Assembly (NCBI GenBank): GCA_946183785.1
Contig: CAMHCS010000016.1
Span: 1-64,000 of the forward strand
Reading direction: 5' to 3'
From: an uncultured Selenomonadales bacterium
GTDB lineage: Bacteria; Bacillota; Negativicutes; Selenomonadales; Selenomonadaceae
DNA: 64,000 nucleotides
In this document: piece by piece, positions 45,826-62,744 of the stretch
Layout: the number at the start of each line of letters is the position of its first letter
Position numbering within the stretch: the first letter of the stretch is position 1
The notes under the pieces: model-generated
What the model saw: the letters and a program-made list of their open reading frames with translations, nothing else
The model's database searches: none
What the model was told of the DNA's origin: nothing
Position numbers and translations under genes: made by a program

Positions 45826-45844
45826 CGAATCGTAAAAGCCGAAT

Positions 45845-45946
45845 AGGTTTTGCACGGCTGACGGATTAGTGGAATCGACCACGTGTCGCGCAAAGCTGAG
45901 ATGAGCCGACCGTCTGGGCAGAGAGGAATTGCCCGGGCGTTTTTTA
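45845..45946 (+). promoter_or_regulatory. Likely ZTP (pfl) riboswitch with expression-platform terminator
   Basis: The leader holds a GGCTGACGG segment, a short hairpin GTGG/CCAC, GTGTCGCG and then the conserved 3' block CCGTCTGGGCA (45910-45920), the hallmark of ZTP/ZMP riboswitches. The same block pairs with TGCCCGGGCG (45930-45939) followed by six T residues, so aptamer and terminator are mutually exclusive. ZTP signals folate one-carbon shortage; binding should allow transcription of the downstream transporter. A covariance search was not possible; the 5' half is recognised less surely than the 3' block. Confidence 0.75.
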
Positions 45947-45992: not shown

Positions 45993-47219
45993 ATGAGAAA
46001 TCGTTGGTTGATTGCATTATCCGCCGTCGGGATACATATTTCCATAGGCAGCGTCTACGCCTGGAGCGTATTGACGCGCCCGATCATGGAGGCCGTCGAC
46101 GCTTCCCTGCGAGACGTCACATGGGCGTTTTCCGTCGCTATTTTGTTCCTCGGCACGTCCGCCGGATTTCTCGGCAACTTCGTCGAACGCAGCGGCCCGA
46201 AAAAGAGCGGTCTGATTTCCATGCTGCTTTTCGGCGTCGGCATGCTGGGCACCGCATTCGCCATCTCGCAGCAAAGTCTCGCGCTGCTCTATCTGTTCTA
46301 CGGCGTGATCGGCGGTATCGGTCTCGGCGTCGGTTACATTACCCCGGTTTCCACACTGGTCAAATATTTCCCCAAGCATCGCGGCTTTGCCACCGGCATG
46401 GCCATCATGGGCTTCGGCTTCGCCGCGCTGATTGCCGGCCCCGTCATGCAATACCTGGCGGCGGCGTACGGCCTGAGTTATGCCTTCATCATTCCCGGCG
46501 TCGTCTACATGGTCGTCATGGGCGCCTCTGCCCTCTATCTGAAGCCTCCGGCGAAAACCGCTCCCGTCCCGTCGGAAAAGCATGTGGGAACAGTTCCCAC
46601 CGTCGAAGGTCTCTCCACGGAAGAAGCGGTGCGGACTTGGCAATTCGCTGCCCTCTGGTCGATTTTCTTCATCAATATCACCTGCGGCATCAGCCTGCTC
46701 GCCGTAGCCTCGCCTATGGCGCAGGAAACCTGCGGCATGACGGCAGGCGAGGCAGCAAGCCTCGTCGGCGTCATCGGCCTCATTAACGGGCTCGGGCGTA
46801 TCGCCTGGTCCACCGTGTCCGACTACATAGGCAGGGGCGCGACTTACGCGCTGTTCTTCCTGATTGAAATCGGCGCCTTCATCGCGTTGGCGGACGCGAA
46901 ATCACCGGGGCTGTTCCAATTCCTGACGCTACTGATTATCAGCTGCTACGGCGGCGGTTTTTCCTGTATGCCCGCCTATCTCAGCGATATCTTCGGCGTC
47001 CGCTGCCTCAGCGCCATCCACGGCCGCGTCCTGACCGCCTGGGGGCTTGCCGGCATCGCTGGTCCTACCCTCGTGTCTTTGCTCCACGATCAGGGGTACG
47101 GCTACGCGGTAACGCTCTATCTCTTCGCGGGACTCTTCTTCGTAAATCTCGTCATCGCACTGGTGCTCTGGCGCAGCCGCCGGACGCGCACCGTATGGCA
47201 GCCCGTGCCGGAAGTGTAA
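45993..47219 (+). CDS. MFS transporter, oxalate/formate antiporter (OFA) family
   Basis: A 408-residue protein with 12 predicted membrane helices. The start, RNRWLIALSAVGIHISIGSVYAWSV, is typical of OFA-family (OxlT/YhjX) proteins (shown here by IHISIGSVYAWSV), and GIGLGVGYITP and KYFPKHRGFATGM are family motifs. The substrate is likely a small carboxylate; control by a ZTP riboswitch makes a link to formate or one-carbon supply attractive (inference). ATG follows AGGAGGGG. It is the last gene before the accessory island. Confidence 0.88.
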   Translation: MRNRWLIALSAVGIHISIGSVYAWSVLTRPIMEAVDASLRDVTWAFSVAILFLGTSAGFLGNFVERSGPKKSGLISMLLFGVGMLGTAFAISQQSLALLYLFYGVIGGIGLGVGYITPVSTLVKYFPKHRGFATGMAIMGFGFAALIAGPVMQYLAAAYGLSYAFIIPGVVYMVVMGASALYLKPPAKTAPVPSEKHVGTVPTVEGLSTEEAVRTWQFAALWSIFFINITCGISLLAVASPMAQETCGMTAGEAASLVGVIGLINGLGRIAWSTVSDYIGRGATYALFFLIEIGAFIALADAKSPGLFQFLTLLIISCYGGGFSCMPAYLSDIFGVRCLSAIHGRVLTAWGLAGIAGPTLVSLLHDQGYGYAVTLYLFAGLFFVNLVIALVLWRSRRTRTVWQPVPEV

Positions 47220-48252: not shown

Positions 48253-49428
48253 TCAATACCCAATAGCAAAATAGAAAGCGCGGAATGGATAGATGAAACC
48301 TTCAACGCCAGAATACGATACAACGACTTTATTTTTATCGTATGATACTAAATCAATCCAACCATGTGTTTCCGACGGATAGCTGGGCGGAATTAATGCA
48401 GTAGATGTTGAGCAAAATAGAATTCCATTTGGGAATGGTTTTTTAAATGGAATAGGAAATCCATGCAAGGATGCGTCATAAACTAGATTATCTGTTCCAC
48501 CATACGTTTGCTTCGAAAATCCCCATTGAAGAATCAACCCGCTACCTAGTCTCACCCAGCCGTCTTCAAGCCCAGCAGGTTTCCCACTGCCTCCGGCAGA
48601 AGATAGCGGCACTTTTGTTCCACCAAGGTAAGCATATAAAGCTTTCCCTTCGGGCATGCTGACACTATCGTCTTGGTTTTCATATTTGAAAGACATTTCG
48701 AATGAGTTTCCGTTTTTCACGAAAGCGTTGTTAATCTGCGCCTTCGTATAATAATCTCCGAGCGAACTACTGACAGCCGCCGTCGTCGCGTAACTGGCAA
48801 GTGCTGAGTTTATCTGCGCCTTTGTGTAATAATTCCCGAGCGAACTACTGACGGCCGCCGTCGTCGCATAACTGGCAAGTGCCGAGTTTATCTGTGCCTT
48901 CGTGTAATAATCCCCGAATTTGTTCTCGGCAGCCGCAACCCGCGTCTCCAGATTCGCGATACGGCTCGATGGAGAGGCAACGCGGATTGCCTTCACGGGT
49001 CCCAGCGGCGTCGTCCCCTCTGGCCCCGTAACGGTCAGTGTCACTTGGCGGCACAGTTGCTCCGTCCCGCTCGCCGTGCCGGCGACGCAAGCGCCCGTCG
49101 TCGCGTTGTACTTGCCCGCTGCCGCGTATTCTTCTTTCACAGTGTATTTCCCGTAGGTCGTGGTTTTCGTCGTCGCCGTCTTGAGCTGGTCAATGCTCAT
49201 GTCGTTGATGATATGCCAGCGGTCTTCCATGACGGCCTGCATTTCGAGCTGGGCACTGAGCGCCGCCACGCTCCTTTCGTTCGCGGCGATTGTCTGTGTC
49301 ATCTGTATGATCCACCGCGCCATCGGGATAGCAAGAATCCCAAATGCCAATGCCCCGAGCAAAATCCCTATGAGCGTTACGCCCTTTTTCTCTTTAATTT
49401 TGTTTGCGATTTTCTTTTGCAAAGTCAT
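48253..49428 (-). CDS. Prepilin-like protein with phage tail-fibre-like C-terminus
   Basis: A 391-residue protein. Residues 1-40 resemble a type IV prepilin: a basic start, then KKGVTLIGILLGALAFGIL, with cleavage expected after the Gly; the usual Glu at +5 is Gly here. Residues 41-155 look like a pilin globular part with two Cys (about 114 and 126). Residues 172-240 hold two full and one partial 26-residue repeat (YYTKAQINSALASYA), as in phage tail fibres. The last 150 residues (GLILQWGF, final FYFAIGY) resemble tail-fibre receptor-binding tips. ATG 49428 follows GGAGGG. A minor, tip-located adhesin pilin analogous to PilV is the best guess. Confidence 0.72.
   Translation of the reverse strand: MTLQKKIANKIKEKKGVTLIGILLGALAFGILAIPMARWIIQMTQTIAANERSVAALSAQLEMQAVMEDRWHIINDMSIDQLKTATTKTTTYGKYTVKEEYAAAGKYNATTGACVAGTASGTEQLCRQVTLTVTGPEGTTPLGPVKAIRVASPSSRIANLETRVAAAENKFGDYYTKAQINSALASYATTAAVSSSLGNYYTKAQINSALASYATTAAVSSSLGDYYTKAQINNAFVKNGNSFEMSFKYENQDDSVSMPEGKALYAYLGGTKVPLSSAGGSGKPAGLEDGWVRLGSGLILQWGFSKQTYGGTDNLVYDASLHGFPIPFKKPFPNGILFCSTSTALIPPSYPSETHGWIDLVSYDKNKVVVSYSGVEGFIYPFRAFYFAIGY
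48744..48917 (-). repeat. 78-bp in-frame tandem repeats in the pilin-like gene
   Basis: Two full copies and a part copy of a 78-bp unit encode the YYTKAQIN repeats. The copies differ at only a few bases, so expansion or contraction by slippage is likely. Confidence 0.8.
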
Positions 49429-49561
49429 ACGAATTCCCTCCACTAGGATCTTATCAGGATCGTATTTCTTTTACAATTTGTCAGGGCGTGAATCGACTGC
49501 CGGCTTCTTACCTTTTTGGTAATACAATCCCGCGCTGAACGCTAGGCAAGGTCGTCGCAAG

Positions 49562-49615
49562 CGCGTCATCATCTTCCCGTAGCACATTCGCGGGAGAAAA
49601 GAAAGCGCCCTCGCG
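49562..49615. repeat. Direct repeat DR2 on the right of the pilin-like gene
   Basis: This repeats the block order of DR1: CGCGTCATCATCTTCCCGT (49562-49580), GGGAGAAAA, CGCCCTCGCG. With DR1 it brackets one gene and its promoter region. Confidence 0.75.
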
Positions 49616-49645
49616 ACTCATGAAGAGAAAGAGGCGAGAGCGGGA
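49604..49645 (-). repeat. Island inverted repeat, copy 3
   Basis: CGCCCTCGCG and GGCGAGAGCGGG pair across a loop of about 16 bases. A GCGAGAGCG word sits at 49634-49642. Confidence 0.6.
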
Positions 49646-49734
49646 GAGAGACAACGCGATTGCGCCAGAACCTCTTGGCTAGCTTTATTTTTTGGGAAAG
49701 GTACGCGAGAGCGCACAGAAAAGAAAAATTCGTG

Positions 49735-49740
49735 TATAAT
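49735..49740 (+). promoter_or_regulatory. -10 box in the leader of array 1
   Basis: A perfect TATAAT lies about 25 bases before the first repeat. The surrounding leader is closely matched by the leader of array 2 (common blocks GCGAGAGCGCACAGAAAAG, AATTCG, GTATAATA and GGCGCTTTTGGGCG). No clear -35 box was seen. Confidence 0.6.
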
Positions 49741-49762
49741 AACGAGAGAGGTATGGGACGAG

Positions 49763-49995
49763 TCGTTGCGGCGCTTTTGGGCGTAGGACGAATGAAAAGG
49801 ATAGTCCAAATTACGCTTCGAAATAGTTGTCGTCCTTCGCTCAGCGTTGGACGAATGAAAAGGACAAGGTGGATCACATCGACTATAAGTTGTCGTCCTT
49901 CGCTCAGCGTTGGACGAATGAAAAGTAGCCTAATCTCAACGGGGGCGGCGTTACCGCCGTTGTCGTCCTTCGCTCAGCGTTGGACGAATGAAAAG
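49763..49995 (+). CRISPR. CRISPR-like array 1 (no cas genes)
   Basis: Three identical 37-base repeats (49826-49862, 49889-49925, 49959-49995) follow a divergent leader-side repeat (49763-49799). Each repeat can form a hairpin TCGTCC/GGACGA and ends in ATGAAAAG, like the 8-base handle of type I/III crRNAs. The unique spacers are 26, 26 and 33 bases. Spacer 3 (49926-49958) nearly equals the sequence at 51866-51897. No cas gene is in the window, and spacer lengths vary more than usual, so the CRISPR label is provisional. Confidence 0.6.
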
Positions 49996-50095
49996 ACTAT
50001 GTATTTCCGCGCTCTCGAGGTATCTTCTCTACCGCGATCCCTTTTGGTCAGCGGGTTTCCGAGCCTGCGCTTTTTGCCACCTTGTCAATAAAAAA

Positions 50096-50131
50096 GCGCC
50101 ATCGCGCTATCGTAAGACAGGGCGAGAGCGG
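50096..50131. repeat. Island inverted repeat, copy 4
   Basis: GCGCCATCGCGC and GGGCGAGAGCG form an imperfect hairpin between array 1 and array 2, just after an A-run. Confidence 0.55.
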
Positions 50132-50180
50132 ATATCGGATAGGGGATAACGCGAGAGCGCACAGAAAAGCGGAATTCGCG

Positions 50181-50186
50181 TATAAT
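50181..50186 (+). promoter_or_regulatory. -10 box in the leader of array 2
   Basis: A perfect TATAAT in a leader that duplicates that of array 1. Confidence 0.6.
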
Positions 50187-50207
50187 AAGAGAGATGAATA
50201 GGCTGTG

Positions 50208-50374
50208 TCGTTTCGGCGCTTTTGGGCGGCGGACGAATGAAAAGAATGGGGAAAGTCCCTAATATCAATTGTCGTCCTTCGTTTACTGTAGGATAAATGA
50301 AAAGATGATGCTCGCGATATTGTCCAGTCGATTTGCGGTTGTCGTCCTTCCTTCGCGTCGGACGAATTAAAAAA
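50208..50374 (+). CRISPR. CRISPR-like array 2 (degenerate)
   Basis: A leader-side repeat like that of array 1 (50208-50244), a diverged repeat (50268-50304) and a degenerate last repeat (50338-50374) enclose spacers of 23 and 33 bases. Spacer 2 (50305-50337) is a diverged copy of part of the recombinase gene: 22 of its last 25 bases match 51031-51055. Degeneration of the last repeat is common in CRISPR arrays. Confidence 0.5.
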
Positions 50375-50407
50375 AGAGAGCAAATCCGCGGGTTCGCTCT
50401 CTTTTTG
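50370..50407. terminator. Bidirectional terminator, array 2 / recombinase
   Basis: AAAAAGAGAGC and GCTCTCTTTTT pair across a 14-base loop. It lies between array 2 and the convergent recombinase gene. Confidence 0.75.
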
Positions 50408-50409
50408 TA

Positions 50410-51429
50410 TTACTTTAGGTAGGTTTCGACGACGTCTAAGCGCGTGTGGAAAAGTTCTTTGGACACCATAGCTTTCGCTCGAACATCGCTGAAGCCCTGT
50501 TTGCGTAGTGAGTTGTATAGGTTTTTTGCAAAAGTATGACGAAATCCATGCGATGAGTGTTTGCTGTAGTCTACGCCAATCCTCCGGCATGCGCCCTCGA
50601 GCTTGTCTAAATAGGTTCTATAACTTATCAGTTCGCACCGTCCATAATTCCCACCGTTGAAAGATAGCGCCCGCGCGTATAAATCTTGCGGAAGCTGGTA
50701 ATTTTGGTGCGGCATTCCGCCTTTCGAAGTGATTGCGATTTTTCCATTTGGCTTCAATTCAAATCTTCTTGCGTTATCGACACGCAACCCTGTGCGCAAT
50801 TGGATTTCCGCGACCAGTTGAGCGCGAGCGTTTAAATTCGGGCTTCCCGTTCCGTTTGCAAGTTCCTTGATTACGGCTTCGGGGTTTTCATAGGCGCGAA
50901 TGCGCGCCTGCGATTGGGGCATATCCGGCAAAATTTTTTCACGAAATTCCGCTATCTTTTTTTCCATTTCAGGGGCAAGATTCGTCCCTCGCGCTCTGTC
51001 TGCGCAAACTGCCCATTTGTTGCAGAGCGCCGCAATATTATCCATTCGATTTGCGCACTGTCCCATTTTTTCTCCGTTCGCAACTTTTTCGAGATTTTCT
51101 TCGACTTTCGCGGACAACCATGAATACGCATGGTCGGCGTTCACCATTTTGATGTCAAAATGACCTTTTTCATCCAGACACTCGCCGCGACTTTTCAGAT
51201 AGTTGCCCATTTCCGAAAGTGTGCCAATATATTCCTTCGCTGTCGCCTGCCTGATTGGCGTGTATTTCGCAGTTTCGTGAAACTCCGAGATTCCCTGATT
51301 GCGCAAATCGCGCTTAATCTCGAACTTTGTCCGACCGTCCTCCTGCTGGCTTCGGGTACCATAAACGAGTCCTGAATCCCAAAAATCCGCTCGGAATTGG
51401 GCGGAGACGGACATGTGGTTTTTGCTCAT
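50410..51429 (-). CDS. Tyrosine recombinase/integrase
   Basis: A 339-residue protein. Catalytic residues are recognisable in the C-terminal half: Arg in LRTGLRVDNARR, Lys in ITSKGG, HGFRHTFA (His-x-x-Arg), a His in KELFHTRLD and the nucleophile Tyr in VVETYL at the very end. The N-terminal 150 residues are a core-binding domain. ATG 51429 follows AAAGGGGG. It could integrate the island, or act on the repeats around the pilin-like gene as Rci does on shufflons. No partner excisionase was seen. Confidence 0.85.
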   Translation of the reverse strand: MSKNHMSVSAQFRADFWDSGLVYGTRSQQEDGRTKFEIKRDLRNQGISEFHETAKYTPIRQATAKEYIGTLSEMGNYLKSRGECLDEKGHFDIKMVNADHAYSWLSAKVEENLEKVANGEKMGQCANRMDNIAALCNKWAVCADRARGTNLAPEMEKKIAEFREKILPDMPQSQARIRAYENPEAVIKELANGTGSPNLNARAQLVAEIQLRTGLRVDNARRFELKPNGKIAITSKGGMPHQNYQLPQDLYARALSFNGGNYGRCELISYRTYLDKLEGACRRIGVDYSKHSSHGFRHTFAKNLYNSLRKQGFSDVRAKAMVSKELFHTRLDVVETYLK

Positions 51430-51530
51430 ACGAAAAACCCCCTTTTCATTGCGGAGGTGGATGAATGACGATATAATATTGGAAAAGGTATTATAAATGA
51501 AATGCAAAAGGAAAATGAAAACTTCTTCGT

Positions 51531-51569
51531 ACCGCCCTCGCGTTATCTTATGATAGAGCGAGAGCGGTA
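51531..51569. repeat. Island inverted repeat, copy 5
   Basis: ACCGCCCTCGCG and GCGAGAGCGGT pair in an almost perfect 12-bp stem upstream of the recombinase. Confidence 0.65.
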
Positions 51570-51865
51570 TTATATTTGGCTAATTAACGGATTTTCATGC
51601 AGAGACATGAGGCTCCGTGAGACCCCAAAAAGACATACCCGCCCGCAATCGCGGCACCCAACGTTTTTGGCGTTGGAACAGGCACCCACCGTGCTGTGGC
51701 CCATTATGCTTCAAGATTTTTAGCAGATTATTAGGAAAATCAAGCAACCGTTTAAAACCAGTCCCTACTGGGACCGACCGACGAAATCGAAGGGGAGTTT
51801 TAGCAGACTTGTTGAAGCCGTTACCGATTAATTACGGCACAGAGCTCACAGATTAGAGAATCATT

Positions 51866-51897
51866 TAGCTAATCTCAAGGGGGCGGCGTTACCGCCC
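51866..51897 (+). other. Site resembling spacer 3 of array 1
   Basis: Aligned to spacer 3, all bases of this site match, apart from two single-base insertions in the spacer. The right half is the stem-loop GGCGG-CGTTA-CCGCC. It is not inside a recognisable gene. Confidence 0.75.
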
Positions 51898-52145
51898 CAA
51901 ATTGAAATATCGTATGTAGTTGCCTCCCCTTTTGCGACCCTCTTTCCCACAAAAAAGAATCGCTAAAAAGTCGCTTACTTGTGGTTGCAAGCTTTCCTTT
52001 TTGGGCGCTTCGCCCAAGCAACACATACGGCGGGCTACCGCAATGGGCCCCGCAAAAGCCTTTCGGCTCCTTTGACACTTTCATTATACCGATCATACAT
52101 AAAGATCGCAAGTCGAAAATATTATACAAAAGGAAACTTGTTTTT

Positions 52146-52268
52146 ATGGAAACGCGAGAGCGTAAAATAAAATCATTTTTTAAAATTTCAATTATTAATA
52201 TAGAAGGATTTCGTCATCAAAAATCTTCCAAAGCATTAGATTTCGATTCTACGATTTTTGGTATATAA
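52146..52268 (+). pseudogene. Possible stub of an AAA/OLD-family ATPase
   Basis: A 40-codon frame starting ATG after AAGGAAA. Its sequence (ISIINIEGFRHQK, then LDFDSTIFG) resembles the first strands of RecF/OLD-type ATPases just before the P-loop, but it stops exactly where the Walker A motif would begin. AT-rich. It may be a truncated defence-type ATPase gene, or chance similarity. Confidence 0.35.
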
Positions 52269-52404
52269 AATGAATAATCTATTTATATAAATAAAAGACC
52301 GAAAACAGATTATTTAACGATTTTTTTTGTAATACTGTCCAAATATTTTTTTCTACGGCAATAACAAATACTATTGAAAAAATTTTTAAAATCGGCGATA
52401 ATTA

Positions 52405-52440
52405 AACCGCCCTCGCTCCATGACAGAGCGAGGGCGGTTA
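52405..52440. repeat. Island inverted repeat, copy 6
   Basis: AACCGCCCTCGC and GCGAGGGCGGTT form a perfect 12-bp stem. Both neighbouring sides are AT-rich. Confidence 0.7.
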
Positions 52441-52818
52441 TTTCTGTATTATTTTTGTTTTTGCGGGAAAACTCTCCCGAAGATTTTTCTCCGTGAGATT
52501 CCATATAATCAGAACACCAGTTCCGCCCTAAACAGATTCCAAAAAGGATGAGGCGAGAGCGCACTCCTTATTCCAAAACGAAAAAGTAATACCGACTACG
52601 CCTTGGCTAGCATTGTCATCCTGTCTCAAAAATCAACAGCGCTCTCGCGTAATCGTAACACGAAAGCGAAGTGAATCCACCACCGATCATCACCGAAAGG
52701 ACAGTGCAAGGGCGGGAACAAAATCGACGCCCCGCGACCCTACCGTACCTTAAAAGAAAAGCGGACGCCAGTTCGGAGATGAAGCGATGACGCAACGCGA
52801 CCGATCCGTCATGCTAGC

Positions 52819-53690
52819 CCTGAAATGTATGACAAAACGACGGTGGATACTCGAAGCGCTCTCGCATAAACATCGAACTCCAAATCTGGCGAAAAAGCAC
52901 AGAGCACTTCCGTAAAATTATTCCGCGATAGCGAAACACCGTCCGTAAAACAGTGAAATCTATCGACCAAGCACTCCGACATCCTACCGAATCAAAAACG
53001 GCGCACGGCTCCGCCTTAAAAGCGAGCACCAGTTCGGCAGTAAAGCGACGGCGCCCGACCCTACCATACCCTACCTTGAAAATTCAGAGCAAACATCCTC
53101 TCAAAAACGGCGCTCTCGCGTTCCTGTGGCGGAGAATAATATCATTTTGAGAAGTTGTGACGCGAGAGCGCAACGTTATACAAAAGGTCATCAATCAAAA
53201 ATGGGGAACGCCCTTCCCGAAAGGTGTGGCGATGGCGAAGCAAAAATCGAGTCCCGCGCGACACTACCATGAAAATGTCTTACAATGCAACGACAGCGCA
53301 GGGGCGAAGCGAAGGTAATAACTTTGAAAAGGTGGACGGTGCGAGGGCGTAGGGGGACGGAAGCGGCAACCCTACCTTGAAAAAGTCTTACAACGCGACC
53401 GCGCTATCGCGGAATGAAGTCAGTGACTTTGAAAATGTGTGACGGCGCTATCGCGGAACAAACTCAGCAAACTTACCTTGAAATTGTGTGACAACGCAAC
53501 GGCTCAGGGGGGGAGGTCGGCAACTGTGAAAATGTGTGACAACGCGACGGCGCGGACTCCTGAGCGTGCAAATATTCAGCGCTCATCGGGAAAAGTATAG
53601 CGCGAGAGCGTGGCATAATCCACCGACTCAAAATCTATCAATCAAAAAAAAAGAGGACAACGCCTTTCCTAAAATGTGACTCGAGGGCGG
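52819..53690 (+). repeat. Degenerate iteron-like direct repeats
   Basis: About nine same-strand copies of a unit like TTGAAAATGTGTGACAACGC occur, at about 52819, 53146, 53268, 53321, 53375, 53426, 53475, 53524 and 53668. Several continue into GCGCTATCGCGG and several are preceded by CCCTACC words. Spacing is irregular (mostly about 50 bases in 53268-53550). Replication-protein iterons have this character, but no rep gene is present. Confidence 0.5.
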
Positions 53691-53766
53691 AGGCTATTCA
53701 CCTTTCCGAGACCTTTTCAGGGGGGTCTTTTTTGACGGAGCGAGAGCGAAAATCCGCAGCGCCTCG

Positions 53767-53800
53767 ACCCTACCATACCCTACCTTACCTTACCTTGATA
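53767..53800 (+). repeat. CCCTACC/TACCT iterated tract
   Basis: ACCCTACCATACCCTACC is followed by three TACCT units. Related words recur at 52737, 53058, 53380 and 54113, often just before an iteron-like unit. Confidence 0.55.
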
Positions 53801-53908
53801 GTGTGCTGCGAACGATTACGGTAATACGAAACGAAAACGCTCACCGCAACACACCGACCGGCTAGGCCAGCCTCGAGACCGGCCCCACCCCCTACGGCTA
53901 CACGCAAG

Positions 53909-53961
53909 GGCCGCACAGTGACCGGCGGTCCGCTTCGCTACCCGCCTGTCACTGTGCGGCC
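53909..53961. repeat. Large GC-rich perfect hairpin
   Basis: A perfect 14-bp stem (GGCCGCACAGTGAC, 53909-53922, with 53948-53961) is extended by a further 5 bp after one mismatch. The T-run expected of a terminator is missing. Two more GC-rich hairpins follow at 53967-53984 and 54035-54059. Confidence 0.75.
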
Positions 53962-54034
53962 GGATAGCGGGCGCTCGCGCCCGCGTCACGGAACGGCTCA
54001 TCCGCTACTGCGACGCGCCCGCTGCGCACCTGGA

Positions 54035-54059
54035 GACGAGCGGGTGACCCCCGCTCGTC
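54035..54059. repeat. GC-rich perfect hairpin
   Basis: GACGAGCGGG (54035-54044) and CCCGCTCGTC (54050-54059) form a 10-bp stem with a five-base loop and no T-run. Confidence 0.7.
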
Positions 54060-54239
54060 GGTGCCCGTCTGACGCCGGCCACCCGTCCGCTTCGCGTCCG
54101 CTTAGCCAGCCTGACCCTACCTTAAGACCTCCGACGCGCCATCGCGAAACCGCCGCGCGCCTACGCCGGCGCGGCTTTGCGAACTTGCTGCGCGGTGCGT
54201 GTTTTATCCTCCGTTAAACTTTTACGCGTAACTTTTACA

Positions 54240-54343
54240 CGCAGAATGTAAATTTAGAATGTAAATCTAAAATATAAATTTAGAATTTAGATTTAGAATA
54301 TAGATTTATATTTTAGATTTAGAATTTAGATTTACAATTTACG
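54240..54343. repeat. AT-rich degenerate tandem tract
   Basis: Repeated TTTAGAAT and TAGATTTA words fill about 100 bases of nearly pure A/T next to the GC-rich hairpins. Such a tract melts easily. Confidence 0.6.
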
Positions 54344-54491
54344 ATTTGCGCAATCTTTATGAAGCCACTCTCGCGACTCGAATAGAAGAGCGGCGGATTC
54401 ACAATTCGAGTTCCGTCCCAGCCCACCCAAACTTTTCATATGGACTCTGCAAGCCCTGCTTTTTGATAATGAGTTCATTCAAAAATTGCAT

Positions 54492-54536
54492 AAAAAACGC
54501 TCTCGCGTTATCGTTGAGCGAGGGCGTTTTTCTACG
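54492..54536. terminator. Island inverted repeat, copy 7 (terminator-like)
   Basis: AAAAAACGCTCTCGCG and GCGAGGGCGTTTTT pair around GTTATCGTT, with A- and T-runs on either side, so it can act in both directions. Confidence 0.75.
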
Positions 54537-55067
54537 TCTATCTGTAACACTTTCCCAAAAGACCTCTGGCTAGCTTTGACAAATTTCATAATAGGACAGG
54601 GGAGGGAATCTTCATAACCGTTCCTCTGAACATATAAAAAGTTTAACTTTTCATATCTCCACCCTGAACGGATAGGGCAAACATAACGCCGTGACGCCTT
54701 TCTCTGCCCACGCGCCTGTGCCAGCTAGCCAACAGGGTACGTGGAAGTTGTTGCAAGGTGTCCGTGCAGTCATGCCGTTGTTGCTTGGATTTCCTCGCCC
54801 CACGCGGTCGAGCCTGCCGAATCCTTCGGGACGGTAGGTTTCCGCGCAGAGCAAATCTTTCGCAACCCATAAACTAAAACCTTATTAATCGCTCAGAAGA
54901 TAATCGCCTCCCTTGTGTTTTTCTTGATTTTATTATAGCCGAAAATATTATATTTGTACGGAATTTTTATAAGAGTTTATATATCGAGCCGAACTGTTAT
55001 TTAACCCCAAAAACAATTTTTTTCAATTTGAAAAATGTAAAACCAATGCCCAGAAATAGAATTTGTA

Positions 55068-55147
55068 TGCTATAATCTAGTTGAAGGCGCTCGCGATTCC
55101 TTTCTTTTCCTATCCACTGAACCTATCTTTCGCGAGCGTTTTTTCAT
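55068..55147 (+). ncRNA. Candidate small RNA 1 (tandem pair)
   Basis: An extended -10 box (TGCTATAAT, 55068-55076) is followed within a few bases by GGCGCTCGCGA, a loop of about 35 bases rich in C and U, then TCGCGAGCG and six T residues. The whole predicted transcript is about 65 bases: one hairpin with a large pyrimidine-rich loop. A near-copy follows 79 bases later. No ribosome site or frame is present. Confidence 0.55.
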
Positions 55148-55232
55148 GCTATAATTTCGTTGGAAGGCGCTCGCTAAACCTTTCTCCTAATTCCCATTCA
55201 TTAACCCCTTTCTTTGCGAGCGCTTTTCGTTT
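55147..55232 (+). ncRNA. Candidate small RNA 2 (tandem pair)
   Basis: The same layout as the preceding unit: extended -10 box TGCTATAAT (55147-55155), GGCGCTCGC stem, a loop with CCTTTCTCC and other C/U words, GCGAGCGC and a T-rich end. The stems are conserved between the two units while the loops differ. Confidence 0.55.
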
Positions 55233-55243
55233 GTTTCCTGAAT

Positions 55244-55378
55244 TTGTATTCCAGCAAAGGACCTGATAAAATATTAACAAGCCTTGGGAAATCCCCACCC
55301 CCGCTGTTGCAGATTTTCGGCGGGATCGTGGTGCCGGCGTTTCCCGAGGGGGAGTCAGTGCAGACGACTCCACATTTT
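55244..55378 (+). ncRNA. Candidate structured non-coding RNA
   Basis: TTGTAT (55244-55249), a 17-base spacer and TAAAAT (55267-55272) suggest a promoter. The predicted RNA of about 100 bases has a closing 10-bp stem (CCTTGGGAAA with TTTCCCGAGG), an inner hairpin CCCGC/GCGGG, and a terminator hairpin GGAGTC/GACTCC followed by ATTTTT. I recognise no known RNA family. Confidence 0.5.
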
Positions 55379-55379
55379 T

Positions 55380-55405
55380 AAAGCCCGCTCTTTGAGCGGG
55401 CTTTC
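55380..55405. terminator. Terminator of the six-gene small-protein operon
   Basis: AAAGCCCGCTC and GAGCGGGCTTT form a perfect stem with a three-base loop directly after the stop of the last operon gene. It is symmetric. Confidence 0.85.
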
Positions 55406-55407
55406 TC

Positions 55408-55914
55408 TTATGATGTGGGTTCTTTTTGGCCGGCTTTCTCCAGTTCCTTCACAAATTTCCTTATGGTATCCGGATGAGCCTGTCCTTTTCGATACTTGCG
55501 CGAGTGGCTCAAGTACTGTGATATCTGTTTAAATGTCAAACCTTTTTTTCGCATTTCCAGAATGACTTCTTTGTCCTGAAAGAGTTTTTCTCGCGTTGGA
55601 AGCCCCCTGCACATGTTCCGCGCCGCCCTCTCCGCTCTCGCTTCATGAATGGTCGCGGCTCGCATGCCGTCCGTGGGCATGTGTTTTTTGCAATAATTCT
55701 CCGCAATCGCTAGGCCGTATGCCAGCCGAGCAGCCGCATTGTCTCGAAGCCTTGGGACGTCGCGGAGCCACTGCGCAATCTTTAAGGCTTGCCCGCACTC
55801 GCGGATATGGTCCGCCTGTGTGCGCCGCCCGAAGCGCTCCATCTCTTTTTCGTACGCTATCAGGTCTTCGTCGAGAGCGGCGAAGACCGAGAGCGCTTTA
55901 ATCTTCGTGTACAT
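55408..55914 (-). CDS. Small-protein operon gene 6: putative helix-turn-helix protein
   Basis: A 168-residue protein. The first 110 residues are helical and charged. Near the end, EVILEMRKKGLTFKQISQYLSH followed by HPDTIRKFVKELE looks like a helix-turn-helix (quoted here as KGLTFKQISQYL). Plasmid transfer accessory proteins such as TraK have similar ends, but no relaxase or transfer gene accompanies it. ATG 55914 follows GGAGGAA. It overlaps the upstream gene by 17 bases. Confidence 0.65.
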   Translation of the reverse strand: MYTKIKALSVFAALDEDLIAYEKEMERFGRRTQADHIRECGQALKIAQWLRDVPRLRDNAAARLAYGLAIAENYCKKHMPTDGMRAATIHEARAERAARNMCRGLPTREKLFQDKEVILEMRKKGLTFKQISQYLSHSRKYRKGQAHPDTIRKFVKELEKAGQKEPTS

Positions 55915-56167
55915 CTGCGAGTTCCTCCTCTTGCAACTCGTGTGCGGCGACAAGGAAGCTCCATTTCCATCGCTGGACTTCTCCTTTCTTCTTCATCTCT
56001 TTCGGATATAACTCGAAAAAGTATGACGAGTATTGAATCGACCGCGCGACGATTGTCTCGATTTCGCTTGCTTTACGCCCGCCAATCCACCTCATGAGTG
56101 TGTAGAATTTTTTCGGCTCAGATTGAAGCTCATGGACTGTCTGGCAGGCTTTTTCCTTGGTCAGCAT
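55898..56167 (-). CDS. Small-protein operon gene 5, unknown
   Basis: An 89-residue protein, start MLTKEKACQTVHELQSEP. Rich in aromatic residues in the middle (SIQYSSYFFELYPKE) and acidic at the end. No family recognised. It overlaps gene 4 by seven bases and gene 6 by 17, so the run is tightly coupled. Confidence 0.65.
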   Translation of the reverse strand: MLTKEKACQTVHELQSEPKKFYTLMRWIGGRKASEIETIVARSIQYSSYFFELYPKEMKKKGEVQRWKWSFLVAAHELQEEELADVHED

Positions 56168-56430
56168 TCCACGGCCTCTTTTGCCTTCTGGCGGTAGCTA
56201 GCCAGGTAGCCTTTGAGTTCGGCGAATTCTTCTTCCGTTGTCCAAATCGAGTGTCGGCGGGCCCCCTCGGGCAGGGTCTTGGGTCTGTGCCCTCCATGGT
56301 AGCCGCCGCGCTTTTTCTTCGGCGGCTGCTCTGCCGTTTCAGCAAGGACAGCCTCCTCATTCTTGTCCGGCGCTTTCGCGATTGCCTCATCTTCGAATAA
56401 TAATTGGGTTTGCATGATTGTTCCTTCCAT
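56161..56430 (-). CDS. Small-protein operon gene 4, possible DNA-binding protein
   Basis: An 89-residue protein with an acidic N-terminal half and a basic middle (PPKKKRGGYHGGHRPK), then RRHSIWTTEEEFAELKGYL, a strand-helix pattern reminiscent of ribbon-helix-helix proteins. ATG 56430 follows GGAGG at nine bases. Function unknown. The sequence GGTAGCTAGCCAGG inside it is a variant of the island's TTGGCTAGCCAA palindrome. Confidence 0.65.
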   Translation of the reverse strand: MEGTIMQTQLLFEDEAIAKAPDKNEEAVLAETAEQPPKKKRGGYHGGHRPKTLPEGARRHSIWTTEEEFAELKGYLASYRQKAKEAVEC

Positions 56431-56443
56431 AAATATCGACCTC

Positions 56444-56728
56444 CTACTTTTTCTTTTTGGCTAGCCAAGCACGACTTCGGGTTTCCTCGCTTACGTGCCC
56501 CAGCCCAGTTAGACTATGATATAATTCCTCGCTGGCGCGCTTGTTCTTCTTGTACAAGCGATCCAGAATCTCCTGCGCCGCCGCGATATCCTTTTTGGTC
56601 TCTTCGTCAAGGATTTCCGAGTCACTGATATCGCATATAATATCAATCATCAGAAGCCATGCGTTGAACGCTTTCGAAGCGGCGTAATCATACGCGCGGG
56701 CTTTTTTCAGTTTTTCCTTGGCGGTCAT
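56444..56728 (-). CDS. Small-protein operon gene 3, unknown
   Basis: A 94-residue, mostly helical protein (MTAKEKLKKARAYDYAASK at the start, AWLAKKKK at the end). ATG 56728 overlaps the stop of gene 2 as ATGA and has a GGAGG site. The end of the gene contains a full TTGGCTAGCCAA palindrome. Confidence 0.65.
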   Translation of the reverse strand: MTAKEKLKKARAYDYAASKAFNAWLLMIDIICDISDSEILDEETKKDIAAAQEILDRLYKKNKRASEELYHSLTGLGHVSEETRSRAWLAKKKK

Positions 56729-56973
56729 TTCTTTGCACCTCCGAGCACAACCTTCTCCCATGGCGGCGCCGGAGGAGTCGGAGGGCTATGCCGCGCTTTC
56801 TCGAGGAGCAAGCGGCGCTCCACGTTTTGCTTCGCGTCCCAGACCGATCGGAACGCCTGGTCGAGCGTTTCGTGGGTTTCATCGTCCTTGGGGATTGAGT
56901 TAATCATTTCAAGGATTCTGCCGCATTTTTCGTTGGTCTCCGCAAGCTCCGATGGCGTAAATTCCGTTGTCAT
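56725..56973 (-). CDS. Small-protein operon gene 2, paralogue of gene 1
   Basis: An 82-residue protein. Its core (FTPSELAETNEKCGRILEMI, then DDETHETLDQAF) aligns along its length with gene 1 (FTEAELIDANEKCEQLFQII, then DDETYNLLDSAF). Both end in a Pro-rich tail. No family recognised. ATG 56973 follows GGAGG. Confidence 0.68.
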   Translation of the reverse strand: MTTEFTPSELAETNEKCGRILEMINSIPKDDETHETLDQAFRSVWDAKQNVERRLLLEKARHSPPTPPAPPWEKVVLGGAKK

Positions 56974-56988
56974 CGCAAACACCTCCAG

Positions 56989-57213
56989 TCAATTCCTTTT
57001 CCCTCGTCGGGAGGGGGGATCGGGAACGTCCCGACGGATATACTCGAGAGGCAAGCGCCGTTCAATACTCCGTTTTGCTTCCCAGATTCGCAGGAAAGCG
57101 CTATCGAGCAAATTATATGTTTCGTCGTCTTTTGCGATTGAAAATATAATTTGAAATAATTGTTCGCATTTTTCATTCGCGTCTATAAGTTCCGCTTCTG
57201 TGAATTTCGCCAT
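56989..57213 (-). CDS. Small-protein operon gene 1, paralogue of gene 2
   Basis: A 74-residue protein and first gene of the operon. It shares ANEKC, DDET and WEAKRSIERRL-type sequence with gene 2, so the pair arose by tandem duplication. Helical, with a Pro/Arg-rich tail. Conservation of both copies at protein level, with diverged DNA, argues that both are used. Confidence 0.68.
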   Translation of the reverse strand: MAKFTEAELIDANEKCEQLFQIIFSIAKDDETYNLLDSAFLRIWEAKRSIERRLPLEYIRRDVPDPPSRRGKRN

Positions 57214-57749
57214 TTCCAACACCTCTTATCCATCAGATGAAATGAACCTCGAAATGGCGACTAAAACAGAATGAGCTTGCTGTAGAAGTGGCTGAAATAA
57301 TATCCAAGGAATATTATTATCAGCGGAATCTACAGTCCAATCATAGAGTTTTCCCCGTCATCTCTTATAAGATTGTAGCACAAATGAAAATGAGGTCATG
57401 GCTTCGCCCGCTCTCGCGTTTTAAATAAAAATCGGTCAACTTTTTCAGTGAGGGAGGGTTTTGGGCAGGAACTCTCTTGGCTAGCCAAGGAGTCGCTTGC
57501 GGAAGCGTGTTCTTCTCCATGCCAGGAGCACATTAGAACGACGCGGGCGACAGGCTTCTGCGGAGCTTCAATTATACCGCTCCTGATATTTTCATTATAC
57601 TGTCATTCTTAATAAATTCGGGGATTTTGCATTGTTCCACATAGTTATTTGTCTTACCAAAATGGGGCTGAAATTCCGTTACAGAATAAAGCTAGCCAAG
57701 GCGTTGTGGCGTTTTCGGACTCTTTGATGAAGATGGACGCGTCCAAATA

Positions 57750-57785
57750 AAAAACGCCCTTGCGTTGCGATGGCGCGAGGGCGGC
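57750..57785. repeat. Island inverted repeat, copy 8
   Basis: AAAAACGCCCTTGCG and CGCGAGGGCGGCG pair around TTGCGATGG. This variant loop is shared with the copy at 63020. Confidence 0.6.
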
Positions 57786-57936
57786 GAATCTTTATGAAGA
57801 TTTTGGCGAAATGCGAGGCGAGGGCTCTCTGCATACTCGCGGGTACGGTTCTCTTTGCGGCGATAGTGTTCCGCTGGGAGTAAAGACCGTTACTTCGTCA
57901 CCGTTCAAAAGTGTGGCCTTTCCTCGCGAAATAGTA

Positions 57937-57942: not shown

Positions 57943-57980
57943 ATCACTATTATTTAACTTGCAGAAAGGATAGGTTGGCT

Positions 57981-59957
57981 ATGACTCTCGACGATATCCT
58001 GCACGGCTCGAAATACAATATGGAGCGGTTCACCGAGGCAAACAAGAAAGCACTCCTCGCCCGGACGACAACAAAGACCGTGAAAGGAAAAGAAGCGCTT
58101 TATGTGCTTTGCCCCGTTCGCCAGAAGGATATCAAGCTCACACCGGAGGAAATCGTGCGCCAGCTTTACCTTGACGAACTGACGACTTCTTACGGCTATC
58201 CGCTCTCGCGTCTTTCAGTTGAGTACGTTGTCCAGATCGGTCGGGATAAGAAACGCGCCGATATCGCCATCATGGACAAAGACCGCCCGAATACGCCCTA
58301 TATCCTCATCGAGTGCAAAGAACCGACGCTAAAGGACGGCAAGGAACAGCTTAAATCATATTGCAACGCCACGGGGGCACCCATCGGAGTATGGACGAAT
58401 GGGAATTCTATTTCTTATTACAATCGCAAGGATCCGAACTATTTCGAGGATATCCCGAACATTCCAAGCGCGGCGGAGTCCCTTTCCGATATCTTGACGG
58501 AGCGATGGACGATTGACACGCTCGTCAAAAAAGATAAGCTCGTCACCGAACGCAAATCCTTGAAAGAACTGATTCTCGAAATGGAGGACGAAGTGCTCGC
58601 GAATGCGGGTGTGGATGTTTTCGAGGAAGTTTTTAAGCTGATTTTCACCAAGCTTTATGACGAATTGCAGAGTGGGCGTGACAAAACGCGTGTCCTGCAA
58701 TTCCGCAATTATGGCTATACGGAAGCGGAGCTGAAGAAAAAGATTCAATCCCTTTTTGAGAAGGCGAAGGAAACATGGGAGGGCGTTTTCTCCGAGGGCG
58801 AGAAAATCGATCTCAGCGACTCTCACCTTTCCATTTGCGTCGCCAGCTTGCAGGATGTGAAGCTTTTCAACTCGAATCTTGACGTCGTGGACGACGCTTT
58901 CGAGTATCTGATGAGCAAGAGCCAAAAGGGCGAGAAGGGGCAATACTTCACGCCGCGTTATGTCATTGATATGTGTGTGCGCATGCTGAACCCCACCGCC
59001 GAGGAAAACATGATTGACCCTGCGGCGGGAAGTTGCGGCTTTCCGATTCACACGATTTTCTATGTTTGGCGGAAGATTTTCGAGGAAAAGGGGCTTTCGC
59101 AGAGCCACCTTTTCACAACGGAGCAGAAGCCGTCCGAGTGTATCGACTATGTGAACAGCCACGTTTTCGCGATTGACTTCGACAAGAACTGCGTGCGCGT
59201 CTCCCGCATGCTGAATCTGATTGCTGGCGACGGCAAAACCAACGTCATAAAGCTGAACAGTATCGACTTCGACCGCTGGACAGAAGAAACGAAAAATGAA
59301 GATTGGATTGACGTCTACAACGAAGGCTGGAAGAAGCTGAAAAAGTTCCGCCGCAACAAGGATAACGACCAATTCTATAATTTCGACGTACTGATGGCGA
59401 ATCCGCCATTTGCGGGGGATATTAAGGAGAGCCGTATTATCGCTAAGTACGAGCTAGGAAAGAACGCCAAGGGCAAGCAACAAGGGAAAGTCGGTCGCGA
59501 TATCCTCTTTATCGAGCGCAACCTGAATATGCTGAAGCCCGGAGGGCGTATGGCTATCGTGTTGCCGCAAGGGCGCTTCAATAATTCGAGCGACAAGTAT
59601 ATTCGCGATTTTATTGCCGAGCAATGCCGTATTCTCGCGGTGGTTGGACTTCATGGTAATGTGTTCAAGCCGCACACAGGTACAAAGACCTCCGTGCTTT
59701 TCGTGCAGAAGTGGGACGACGAGCTTTGCCCGAAAAAGGACGACTATCCGATTTTCTTCGCGACCATGCAGGAGCCGAGCAAGGACAGCTCCGGCGAGAA
59801 AATCTTTGAAGCGAAGAATGGGAAGCCAATCCTTGACACGCACGGGCATTTGATTGTTAAACATGATCTTTACAACCACGACGGCTTGACGCAGGACGGT
59901 ATCGCCGAAGCGTTCGCGGAATTCGCGAAGAAGGAGAAGTTGAGTTTTTTCGCCTAA
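57981..59957 (+). CDS. BcgI-like restriction-modification subunit: nuclease plus N6-adenine methyltransferase
   Basis: A 658-residue fusion protein. Residues about 55-115 form an HsdR-N-type PD-(D/E)xK nuclease (RADIAIM, then LIECKEP: D94, E111, K113). Residues about 300-600 are an HsdM-type methylase: GQYFTP, motif I DPAAGSCGF (near 345) and motif IV NPPF (near 473). There is no translocating helicase. Together with the S subunit next door this is the layout of type IIB enzymes such as BcgI, which cut on both sides of a bipartite site. ATG 57981 follows AAAGGA. Confidence 0.87.
   Translation: MTLDDILHGSKYNMERFTEANKKALLARTTTKTVKGKEALYVLCPVRQKDIKLTPEEIVRQLYLDELTTSYGYPLSRLSVEYVVQIGRDKKRADIAIMDKDRPNTPYILIECKEPTLKDGKEQLKSYCNATGAPIGVWTNGNSISYYNRKDPNYFEDIPNIPSAAESLSDILTERWTIDTLVKKDKLVTERKSLKELILEMEDEVLANAGVDVFEEVFKLIFTKLYDELQSGRDKTRVLQFRNYGYTEAELKKKIQSLFEKAKETWEGVFSEGEKIDLSDSHLSICVASLQDVKLFNSNLDVVDDAFEYLMSKSQKGEKGQYFTPRYVIDMCVRMLNPTAEENMIDPAAGSCGFPIHTIFYVWRKIFEEKGLSQSHLFTTEQKPSECIDYVNSHVFAIDFDKNCVRVSRMLNLIAGDGKTNVIKLNSIDFDRWTEETKNEDWIDVYNEGWKKLKKFRRNKDNDQFYNFDVLMANPPFAGDIKESRIIAKYELGKNAKGKQQGKVGRDILFIERNLNMLKPGGRMAIVLPQGRFNNSSDKYIRDFIAEQCRILAVVGLHGNVFKPHTGTKTSVLFVQKWDDELCPKKDDYPIFFATMQEPSKDSSGEKIFEAKNGKPILDTHGHLIVKHDLYNHDGLTQDGIAEAFAEFAKKEKLSFFA
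59945..59951 (+). other. Possible -1 ribosomal frameshift site
   Basis: The heptamer T TTT TTC lies in phase two codons before the methylase stop (59955-59957). A -1 slip would continue into the S-subunit frame, which is open and protein-like for 15 codons before its first ATG (reading RLSPQPFDAKKYERL). Confidence 0.4.
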
Positions 59958-59995
59958 GCCCGCAGCCGTTTGACGCGAAGAAGTATGAACGGCTA

Positions 59996-61417
59996 ATGAG
60001 CGGGCTTGAATGTAGCGAAATATTAAAAGGCGATTTGGAGGAAAGTTTTCGCATAGACGCAGAATTTTTCCAAAAGAAATATACTTTTTTTGCTGATTGG
60101 GTAAAGACCGTTAAGCATACATCTCTATCGAAAGAATCTCTTGTTGCACGCAAGGGAATATTTGATGTAAATGCCAGTTTTTACACAGACAAAGGAGTTC
60201 CTTTTGTTCGTATTTCCAGTCTGCGTAATATGCTAATAGATAATGCAAATGTAGTGTGTATTCCGCAAGTTATTGATGTTGCTAACATGGATACACATTT
60301 ATCTTATGGAGATATTGTTTTATCAAAGACTGCAATCCCAGCGGCTTCTTTTATAAATCTTCCTGACTGTAATGTGTCACAAGATACAGTCGCAATCAAA
60401 TTAAAACCTTCATCAAATCTTCTTTCAGAATTTCTCGTTGTATTTTTTAATACAAAGTACGGGCTTGCTGCTATGGAACGCCGTTTCACGGGCAATGTCC
60501 AAATGCATTTAAATTTAGTTGAGTGTAAAGAAAAGCTATTGATTCCTGTTTTTTCTTCTGGATTGCAACAGGAAATCAAGGAATTATTTACTACAGCCAT
60601 TGATTTATTCAAAAATGCCAATATTAAGTATCAAGAAGCCGGAACTCTCCTTCTTTCCACGCTTGCGCTCAATGATTTTATCCCCTCAAAAGAGAACACA
60701 AGCGTCAAGACCTTTTCTCAATTCAAGGAAAGCGGACGGCTCGACGCTGAATATTATCACCCAAAGTTTGACGAGCTAATGAAGCGACTCCATACTCATG
60801 CGGAGAAAATGGTTTTGGTGAAAGAGATTCGCACAGAAAATCATCGAGGCGTGCAGCCAGATTACATCGTTGGAGGGGAAATTGCCGTCGTCAATAGTAA
60901 GAACATCCTTGAAAACGGCTTGGACTATGACAATTTCAGTGCGACGAGCCGCGAGCTTTGGGAATTGACACAAAAGGCACATATCGAAAAAGGTGACATT
61001 CTCATCTATACGACGGGCGCGAACGTAGGCAGAGCTGCATTATATCGGTTGAGGGTCCCTGCATTGGCTAGCAATCACGTCAATATTTTGCGGGTTACAC
61101 ATAAGCACCCGAAATATATTGCCTTCGTCATCAACTCCATGATTGGCAGACTGCAAACGGAACGACTAAGCACGGGGTCGGCACAGCAAGAGCTTTATCC
61201 ATCGGATATCGATAATTTCTTAATCCCGATTGTGCCCGAAGCGAAGCAAGCGGAAATCGAAGCCTTGCTTGACGAATCCCATGCCCTCCGCGAGCAAAGC
61301 AAAGCCCTTTTGAAAGCGGCCACTCGGGCGGTAGAAATCGCCATCGAGCAGAATGAAGCAAATGGAATGGAGTTCTTGGAGAAGGCGCGAGAGCGAAATA
61401 AGGAGATGGGAATATAA
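59996..61417 (+). CDS. Specificity (S) subunit of the restriction-modification system
   Basis: A 473-residue HsdS-type protein from the first ATG. Two target-recognition halves are visible: one after FRIDAEFFQKKY (residues 15-200) and one after GRLDAEYYHPKFDEL (about 245-445), each with IxxGDI-like motifs (SYGDIVLSKTA; IEKGDILIYTTGA). It should choose the bipartite DNA site for both cutting and methylation. The ATG has only a weak ribosome site and the frame is open upstream into the methylase gene. The first recognition half is visibly more AT-rich than the rest, a sign of domain exchange. Confidence 0.85.
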   Translation: MSGLECSEILKGDLEESFRIDAEFFQKKYTFFADWVKTVKHTSLSKESLVARKGIFDVNASFYTDKGVPFVRISSLRNMLIDNANVVCIPQVIDVANMDTHLSYGDIVLSKTAIPAASFINLPDCNVSQDTVAIKLKPSSNLLSEFLVVFFNTKYGLAAMERRFTGNVQMHLNLVECKEKLLIPVFSSGLQQEIKELFTTAIDLFKNANIKYQEAGTLLLSTLALNDFIPSKENTSVKTFSQFKESGRLDAEYYHPKFDELMKRLHTHAEKMVLVKEIRTENHRGVQPDYIVGGEIAVVNSKNILENGLDYDNFSATSRELWELTQKAHIEKGDILIYTTGANVGRAALYRLRVPALASNHVNILRVTHKHPKYIAFVINSMIGRLQTERLSTGSAQQELYPSDIDNFLIPIVPEAKQAEIEALLDESHALREQSKALLKAATRAVEIAIEQNEANGMEFLEKARERNKEMGI

Positions 61418-62339: not shown

Positions 62340-62744
62340 TCAGTCGTCTTCCTCTTCCTCTAGTTCTTCGTGGAACTTCATTTCGGGCATTAATGCGTCT
62401 AGCCATTCGATGAACTGCTTCCAGTTAGGCGGGTAGGCGTTCGAGCCGTATATGCGCCTCGTTTTCTTCCCGTCCTCGCGATAGGCCAGTTCCCACTGTG
62501 TCCCGTCGCAAGCGGTCTGCGCATATTCGTCGCTCCATGAATTTACAGCGAGGGCGTCCCACTTGGCTAGCCAAGCCATGTCCTTCACAGGAAGCCGCTT
62601 CCCTTCGTACTGGTCGAAGTCCCCGATATGGTTGAAATTCATGGAGAGGATTTCGTATTTGGCGCTGTGCTTGTATATCCAGAGCCGTACCTCGTCGGAG
62701 CCGCCAAAGAAGCCACCGATCTTGAACCGCATAAATTTAAGCAT
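62340..62744 (-). CDS. Conserved-looking hypothetical protein
   Basis: A 134-residue acidic protein, start MLKFMRFKIGGFFGGSDEVRLW in the frame (quoted MLKFMRFKIGG). DGTQWELAYREDGK and RRIYGSNAYPPNWKQF are distinctive, and it ends in an acidic run. I believe similar small proteins occur in Firmicute mobile elements but cannot name a family. ATG 62744 follows GAGGTGGA. A complete TTGGCTAGCCAA palindrome lies inside it. Confidence 0.65.
   Translation of the reverse strand: MLKFMRFKIGGFFGGSDEVRLWIYKHSAKYEILSMNFNHIGDFDQYEGKRLPVKDMAWLAKWDALAVNSWSDEYAQTACDGTQWELAYREDGKKTRRIYGSNAYPPNWKQFIEWLDALMPEMKFHEELEEEEDD

Follow-up and report, generated by a model that had tools for sequence, protein, structure and literature searches.

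CRISPR mini-arrays are known chiefly from viruses. The mini-arrays of the archaeal viruses SPV1 and SPV2 carry spacers against sister viruses; the targets lie near the array, and the virus's own copy of the target is mutated (PMC6858448). The described viral mini-arrays share the repeat of their host. The DNA analysed here (the window) is a stretch of 64,000 nt from an uncultured Selenomonadales bacterium of the family Selenomonadaceae (positions 1 to 64,000 of contig CAMHCS010000016.1, assembly GCA_946183785.1), and positions 49703-50409 held two tandem leader-repeat-spacer units made up of hairpin repeats and unique 23-33 nt spacers (Table 1). The hallmarks of a mini-array were present: unique spacers between repeats, few units and no cas genes next door. 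However, a repeat identical to that of the host is a defining feature of mini-arrays and was not found here, so the locus is regarded as a variant, not as a proven member. We read the two units, with about even confidence, as element-borne mini-CRISPR arrays of a plasmid-derived Selenomonadaceae element, aimed at sister elements and idle in the present host.

Array 1 contained three identical 37-nt repeats (GTTGTCGTCCTTCGCTCAGCGTTGGACGAATGAAAAG), and four diverged copies were found across the two arrays; the spacers measured 26, 26, 33, 23 and 33 nt in order. In the identical repeat, TCGTCC paired with GGACGA in a 6-bp stem, and exactly 8 nt (ATGAAAAG) came after it; equal folding was reached in only 1 of 200 shuffles. 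A stem with exactly this 8-nt tail was present in every well-formed repeat, which is the layout of repeats cut by Cas6 and of Cas6-processed CRISPR RNA. The atypical first repeats of both arrays folded no better than shuffles, and the stem was weakened in the second repeat of array 2. When the two TATAAT leaders were compared, 49703-49742 and 50149-50188 were 90% identical. Neither leader was called in a consensus promoter scan and only an extended -10 was evident (TGTATAAT and CGTATAAT); both are putative promoters, judged from their sequence. The anatomy described in the earlier note was confirmed: three identical 37-base repeats and diverged copies with unique spacers, a TCGTCC/GGACGA fold with a crRNA-handle-like end, a duplicated TATAAT leader ahead of each array and a terminator common to array 2 and the recombinase.

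Table 1. Features of the array locus and the adjoining recombinase (window positions)
Feature	Position	Strand	Remark
Leader 1, extended -10 TGTATAAT	49703..49762	+	90% identical to leader 2 over 40 nt
Array 1, atypical first repeat	49763..49799	+	form common to array 2
Array 1, spacer 1	49800..49825	+	no target found
Array 1, repeat 2 (37 nt)	49826..49862	+	
Array 1, spacer 2	49863..49888	+	with next base, 27/27 to host rpsR (G000:C38:12755-12781)
Array 1, repeat 3 (37 nt)	49889..49925	+	
Array 1, spacer 3	49926..49958	+	near-match to 51866-51897
Array 1, repeat 4 (37 nt)	49959..49995	+	
Terminator-like hairpin and T tail after array 1	50051..50078	+	hairpin proper 50051-50068
Leader 2, extended -10 CGTATAAT	50149..50206	+	
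Array 2, atypical first repeat	50207..50244	+	
Array 2, spacer 1	50245..50267	+	no target found
Array 2, repeat 2, diverged, weak stem	50268..50304	+	
Array 2, spacer 2	50305..50337	+	near-match to recombinase gene 51031-51055, 22/25
Array 2, last repeat, diverged	50338..50373	+	
Bidirectional terminator-like hairpin common to array 2 and recombinase	50368..50409	.	abuts recombinase stop codon
Tyrosine recombinase, small-plasmid family	50410..51507	-	likely start 51429
Long non-coding stretch upstream of recombinase	51500..52300	-	GGTATAAT-type promoter near 52090
Sequence resembling array 1 spacer 3	51866..51897	-	recombinase upstream region; two one-base gaps

When the relatives were searched with the repeat patterns, arrays were found in the window's genome only, together with a few double-handle matches elsewhere that lacked this hairpin repeat. 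Two matches of the pattern in viral contigs were set aside as chance, both lying inside apparent coding sequence. No significant match to the array DNA was observed among phages and plasmids, and Rfam returned for the array region only a miRNA match at the terminator hairpin, taken as chance. A reading as integron cassettes was dropped on judgement: gene cassettes need more than the 60-70 bp of these units, and the repeat did not look like attC.

A third locus, missed in the earlier note, was present on contig C39 of the same genome (G000:C39:14011-14111, equal to L012:10011-10111), where one spacer stood between two repeats of the window's repeat family. Downstream of it the sequence resembled the DNA after the last repeat of array 1 (76% over 68 nt), a second leader-like sequence without an array followed at L012:10180-10225, and a Rep_1 replication gene lay 1.6 kb downstream of the array. 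Non-coding DNA near both array loci (49600-57800 and L012:10480-11280) was rich in GCGAGAGCG / CGCTCTCGC / CGCCCTCGC units, which were much like small interspersed hairpin elements. Elsewhere in the window, a ZMP/ZTP riboswitch (45844-45926, +) immediately preceded an MFS transporter gene (45993-47219), and the protein encoded at 48253-49443 (-) combined a hydrophobic N-terminus like a type IV prepilin signal with repeats and a C-terminus resembling phage tail fibres (Gp53-like_C, slightly under the cut-off). Type I restriction-modification methylase and specificity genes (57975-61417, +) adjoined the island. A perfect 14-bp palindrome (CTTGGCTAGCCAAG) was located at 57476-57489 and 62562-62575, with half sites in intergenic DNA of several contigs.

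Homologues of the recombinase were rare among the relatives, occurring in 5 of the 125 genomes searched, the window's genome included. In PLSDB they were carried by small gut and Selenomonas plasmids, namely pTRACA41, pSRC8 of Selenomonas ruminantium, pTRACA66 and pTRACA63; the alignments spanned 83-95% of the protein with 26-31% identity. The window element is therefore most likely plasmid-derived. No homologue was found in viral contigs or phages; among GTDB contigs a single recombinase query gave no match and an alignment query recovered Schwartzia only. Rep and resolvase genes lay near the related loci. A paralogue on contig C17 of the same genome was 43% identical, and the distal part of the non-coding stretch upstream of the recombinase, including the GGTATAAT-type promoter, was conserved upstream of it (L013:5040-5344, +; 68% over 317 aligned columns); the window copy of this stretch had no match in Rfam. 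No arrays were found beside the recombinases of C17, other Negativicutes or plasmids, indicating that the arrays are optional cargo. Upstream of the pTRACA66 recombinase, three 8-6-8 palindromes of the AGTTCGTA-6-TACGAACT type (L121:2122-2205) are candidate recombination sites.

Schwartzia succinivorans DSM 10502, which encodes a recombinase homologue 29% identical to that of the window, provided a second, independent case. Its mini-array (L023:4600-4840) was placed about 0.9 kb past the recombinase stop, convergent with the recombinase; after a leader came three 28-nt repeats separated by 32-nt spacers, and the final repeat was followed by a terminator. The repeat (GTTATTCACCGCATAGGTGACTTAGAAT) matched at 24 of 28 positions an array of the Psychrobacter plasmid pA11BP5 that adjoins a full set of type I-F genes (cas3f, csy1-3 and cas6f), and at 23 of 28 the I-F arrays of other Selenomonadaceae, with two stem pairs differing by compensating changes. 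The locus had the 28-nt repeat, the stem and handle and the 32-nt spacers of an I-F array. Csy3 was not found in the Schwartzia genome (G029), and the array adjoining its Cas1 had a different repeat from the mini-array. The resolvase adjoining the mini-array was 40% identical to pTRACA41 orf4. A second copy of the leader (72%) was observed at L023:5278-5469 (+), ahead of a structured non-coding stretch with its own terminator.

Across the small number of loci (window, C39 and Schwartzia), four of the eight spacers matched sequence near their own array. The local-alignment scores of these matches were 18-25 against chance means of 11-12.6 and were reached by none of 150 shuffled spacers in each case; random genomic segments reached them in 0, 1, 0 and 5 of 150, the last value being too high because the DNA from which the segments came includes a CRISPR array. 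Array 1 spacer 3 resembled the region upstream of the recombinase. Array 2 spacer 2 matched the recombinase gene over the 3' part of the spacer and, read by hand, gave ANRLDNIASI where the element's own gene gives ANRMDNIAAL, as expected of a homologue. The match of the C39 spacer fell at the beginning of a small open reading frame lying 0.6 kb upstream. Schwartzia spacer 1 matched a site about 10 kb off, near a putative replication gene, with a genome-wide E of 0.07; its near-match to pTRACA41 (16/18) was judged chance. Within the first eight spacer positions, which form the seed of type I guides, each of the four own-neighbourhood matches was interrupted by a mismatch or an indel. The matches were of mixed strand orientation. 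The 5' flanks of the best matches in the window's genome were GTG, ATT, TTG and GTT, each with T at -2, which are too few to define a PAM. Searches of phages, plasmids and viral contigs yielded no perfect protospacer belonging to a sister element. Three of the eight spacers had no match, and the first spacers of both window arrays had no target anywhere searched.

The remaining spacer pointed to the host. Array 1 spacer 2, with one further base, was identical over 27 of 27 positions to the sense strand of the host rpsR coding sequence. This stretch was conserved (88-100%) across some two dozen further genomes of the family, and the exact match held for this species and two congeners, which suggests a recent event. 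Such a spacer does not fit a sister-targeting role. It suggests either a capture from the host, tolerated because the present host seems to lack interference, or a hypothetical regulatory or host-penalising role.

The cas families were searched one by one, and four were covered; no Cas1, Cas6 (PF10040), RAMP or Csy3 was found in the window's genome. An effector of another type (Cas3, Cas9, Cas12, Cas13, type IV or Cas6 families outside the tested set) is possible. Type I-F genes occurred in 13 of the 125 relatives, 12 in the same family and one a further Negativicutes genome, and congeners had I-C-like or type III loci. Beyond the C39 mini-array, no further array with this repeat was present in the window's genome, which counts against the earlier note, where mini-arrays on a mobile element were proposed to use host Cas proteins in trans. 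The first part of that proposal gained support from the plasmid kin of the recombinase, the Schwartzia array and the element-like spacers; the part concerning host Cas was not supported for this host, given the four absent families and the lack of a host array. Conservation of the spacers base for base in unrelated strains, which would also have told against the note, was not seen in the relatives searched.

From the likeness to the archaeal virus pattern we infer guides against sister elements that would be active only where a compatible Cas system exists. Transcription of each array would start at the leader ahead of it, and cleavage of the hairpin repeats at the stem base would yield short guide RNAs that carry a handle of 8 nt at the 5' end; in the window strain and in S. 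succinivorans DSM 10502 these RNAs would be expected to start with AUGAAAAG (or CUUAGAAU). When a host supplies a compatible Cas effector, the guides may recognise the recombinase gene, its upstream region and the neighbouring genes of sister elements. The carrier would be spared by the seed mismatches, and the outcome would be superinfection exclusion among related elements. In the present host, without the tested cas families, the arrays are probably idle cargo. Several observations were counted against this reading of sister-directed arrays: the exact rpsR spacer would be harmful if the guides directed DNA cutting in the present host; the four tested cas families and a host array with the repeat were missing from the window's genome, Csy3 was missing from Schwartzia, and no perfect sister target was found in the phages, plasmids and viral contigs searched; the spacers varied from 23 to 33 nt; and Schwartzia spacer 1, one of the four local matches, reached only E = 0.07.

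A decaying relic, in which an adaptation module supplied the array while it was in another host and function has since been lost, with self-derived spacers tolerated for want of interference, appears unlikely. The diverged repeats with weakened stems, the absent cas families, the self-matching rpsR spacer and the leader left without an array on C39 are consistent with decay. However, the three identical 37-nt repeats, the conserved duplicated leader and the terminators speak against long neglect, and the apparent recency of the rpsR match points the same way. Slightly more doubtful is an RNA anti-CRISPR decoy of the Racr kind, in which the repeats sequester host Cas6 or Cas7 and the spacers are irrelevant. 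In favour of a decoy, the promoter-led repeat units lack cas genes and sit on a plasmid-type element, repeats are degenerate and the first units are atypical; the Schwartzia copy mimics type I-F, the type that RacrIF1 inhibits, and 12 other Selenomonadaceae plus a further Negativicutes genome possess I-F genes. A decoy has no need for spacers, yet half of them match their own neighbourhood and one matches host rpsR exactly; moreover, Racrs are described as solitary repeat units, and here there were 2-4 repeats per array.

We consider it quite improbable that the arrays encode CRISPR-derived regulatory guides, steering a non-cutting effector to host rpsR and the element's own recombinase and tuning expression in the manner of CreA. 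An exact host-gene match beside imperfect own-gene matches, and degenerate repeats like those of creA genes (PMC8501985), agree with regulation. However, the own-element matches are broken in the seed, the very part through which CreA-like guides should pair, no effector of the tested families was found, strand orientation was mixed, and the matches lay in or upstream of genes and none at a recognised promoter. A non-CRISPR repeat system, such as a small-RNA array or recombinase binding sites, is the least credible reading: spacer length varies, as the earlier note also raised, the repeat is unclassified and a tyrosine recombinase adjoins, but the Schwartzia array by a homologous recombinase is I-F-like in repeat, 28+32 nt period and handle, and the array hairpins are unlike the palindromes upstream of the pTRACA66 recombinase.

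If the preferred reading of sister-directed mini-arrays is true, CRISPR-based rivalry among mobile elements would extend to small bacterial plasmids, different CRISPR repeat types would occupy the same position beside the recombinase in different hosts, and guide arrays would travel through hosts without the machinery. It is also unusual for such an array to contain a piece copied exactly from an essential host gene, and this can be tested directly. A bolder version, to which we give very little credence, is that a lineage of small tyrosine-recombinase plasmids of Selenomonadaceae keeps exchangeable guide cassettes of differing CRISPR type (I-F-like in one host, undescribed in another) beside its recombinase, excludes sister elements and, through the perfect rpsR guide, penalises hosts with a CRISPR system able to use the guides, its persistence thereby falling to hosts from which CRISPR has been lost.

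With CreA and other crRNA-like regulatory RNAs (PMC8501985) the arrays share degenerate CRISPR repeats around a partly self-matching guide; they differ in having several guides with a mismatched seed, and no toxin RNA was identified. The Schwartzia locus resembles type I-F arrays (pA11BP5 and Selenomonadaceae chromosomes) in repeat, 28+32 period and handle; unlike them, it has no nearby cas genes and no Csy3 in the genome, and the window repeat is 37 nt long with another stem and handle and spacers of 23-33 nt. Racrs (PMC10651486) are likewise repeat mimics that follow a promoter and lack cas genes, and they sit on mobile elements, as the present arrays probably do; the I-F mimicry in Schwartzia is a further likeness; unlike Racrs, the present loci carry several repeats with matching spacers and no solitary unit. 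The arrays of SPV1 and SPV2 (PMC6858448) differ in that here the carrier is most likely a bacterial plasmid-derived element, at a chromosomal locus, the window host has neither the tested cas genes nor a host array with the same repeat, and one window spacer is exact to a host gene, with no perfect sister target found in the phages, plasmids and viral contigs searched. As in those viruses, the arrays are preceded by a leader, lack Cas, hold few spacers and probably reside on a mobile element, and their spacers resemble element sequence near the array, the element's own copy bearing mismatches or indels.
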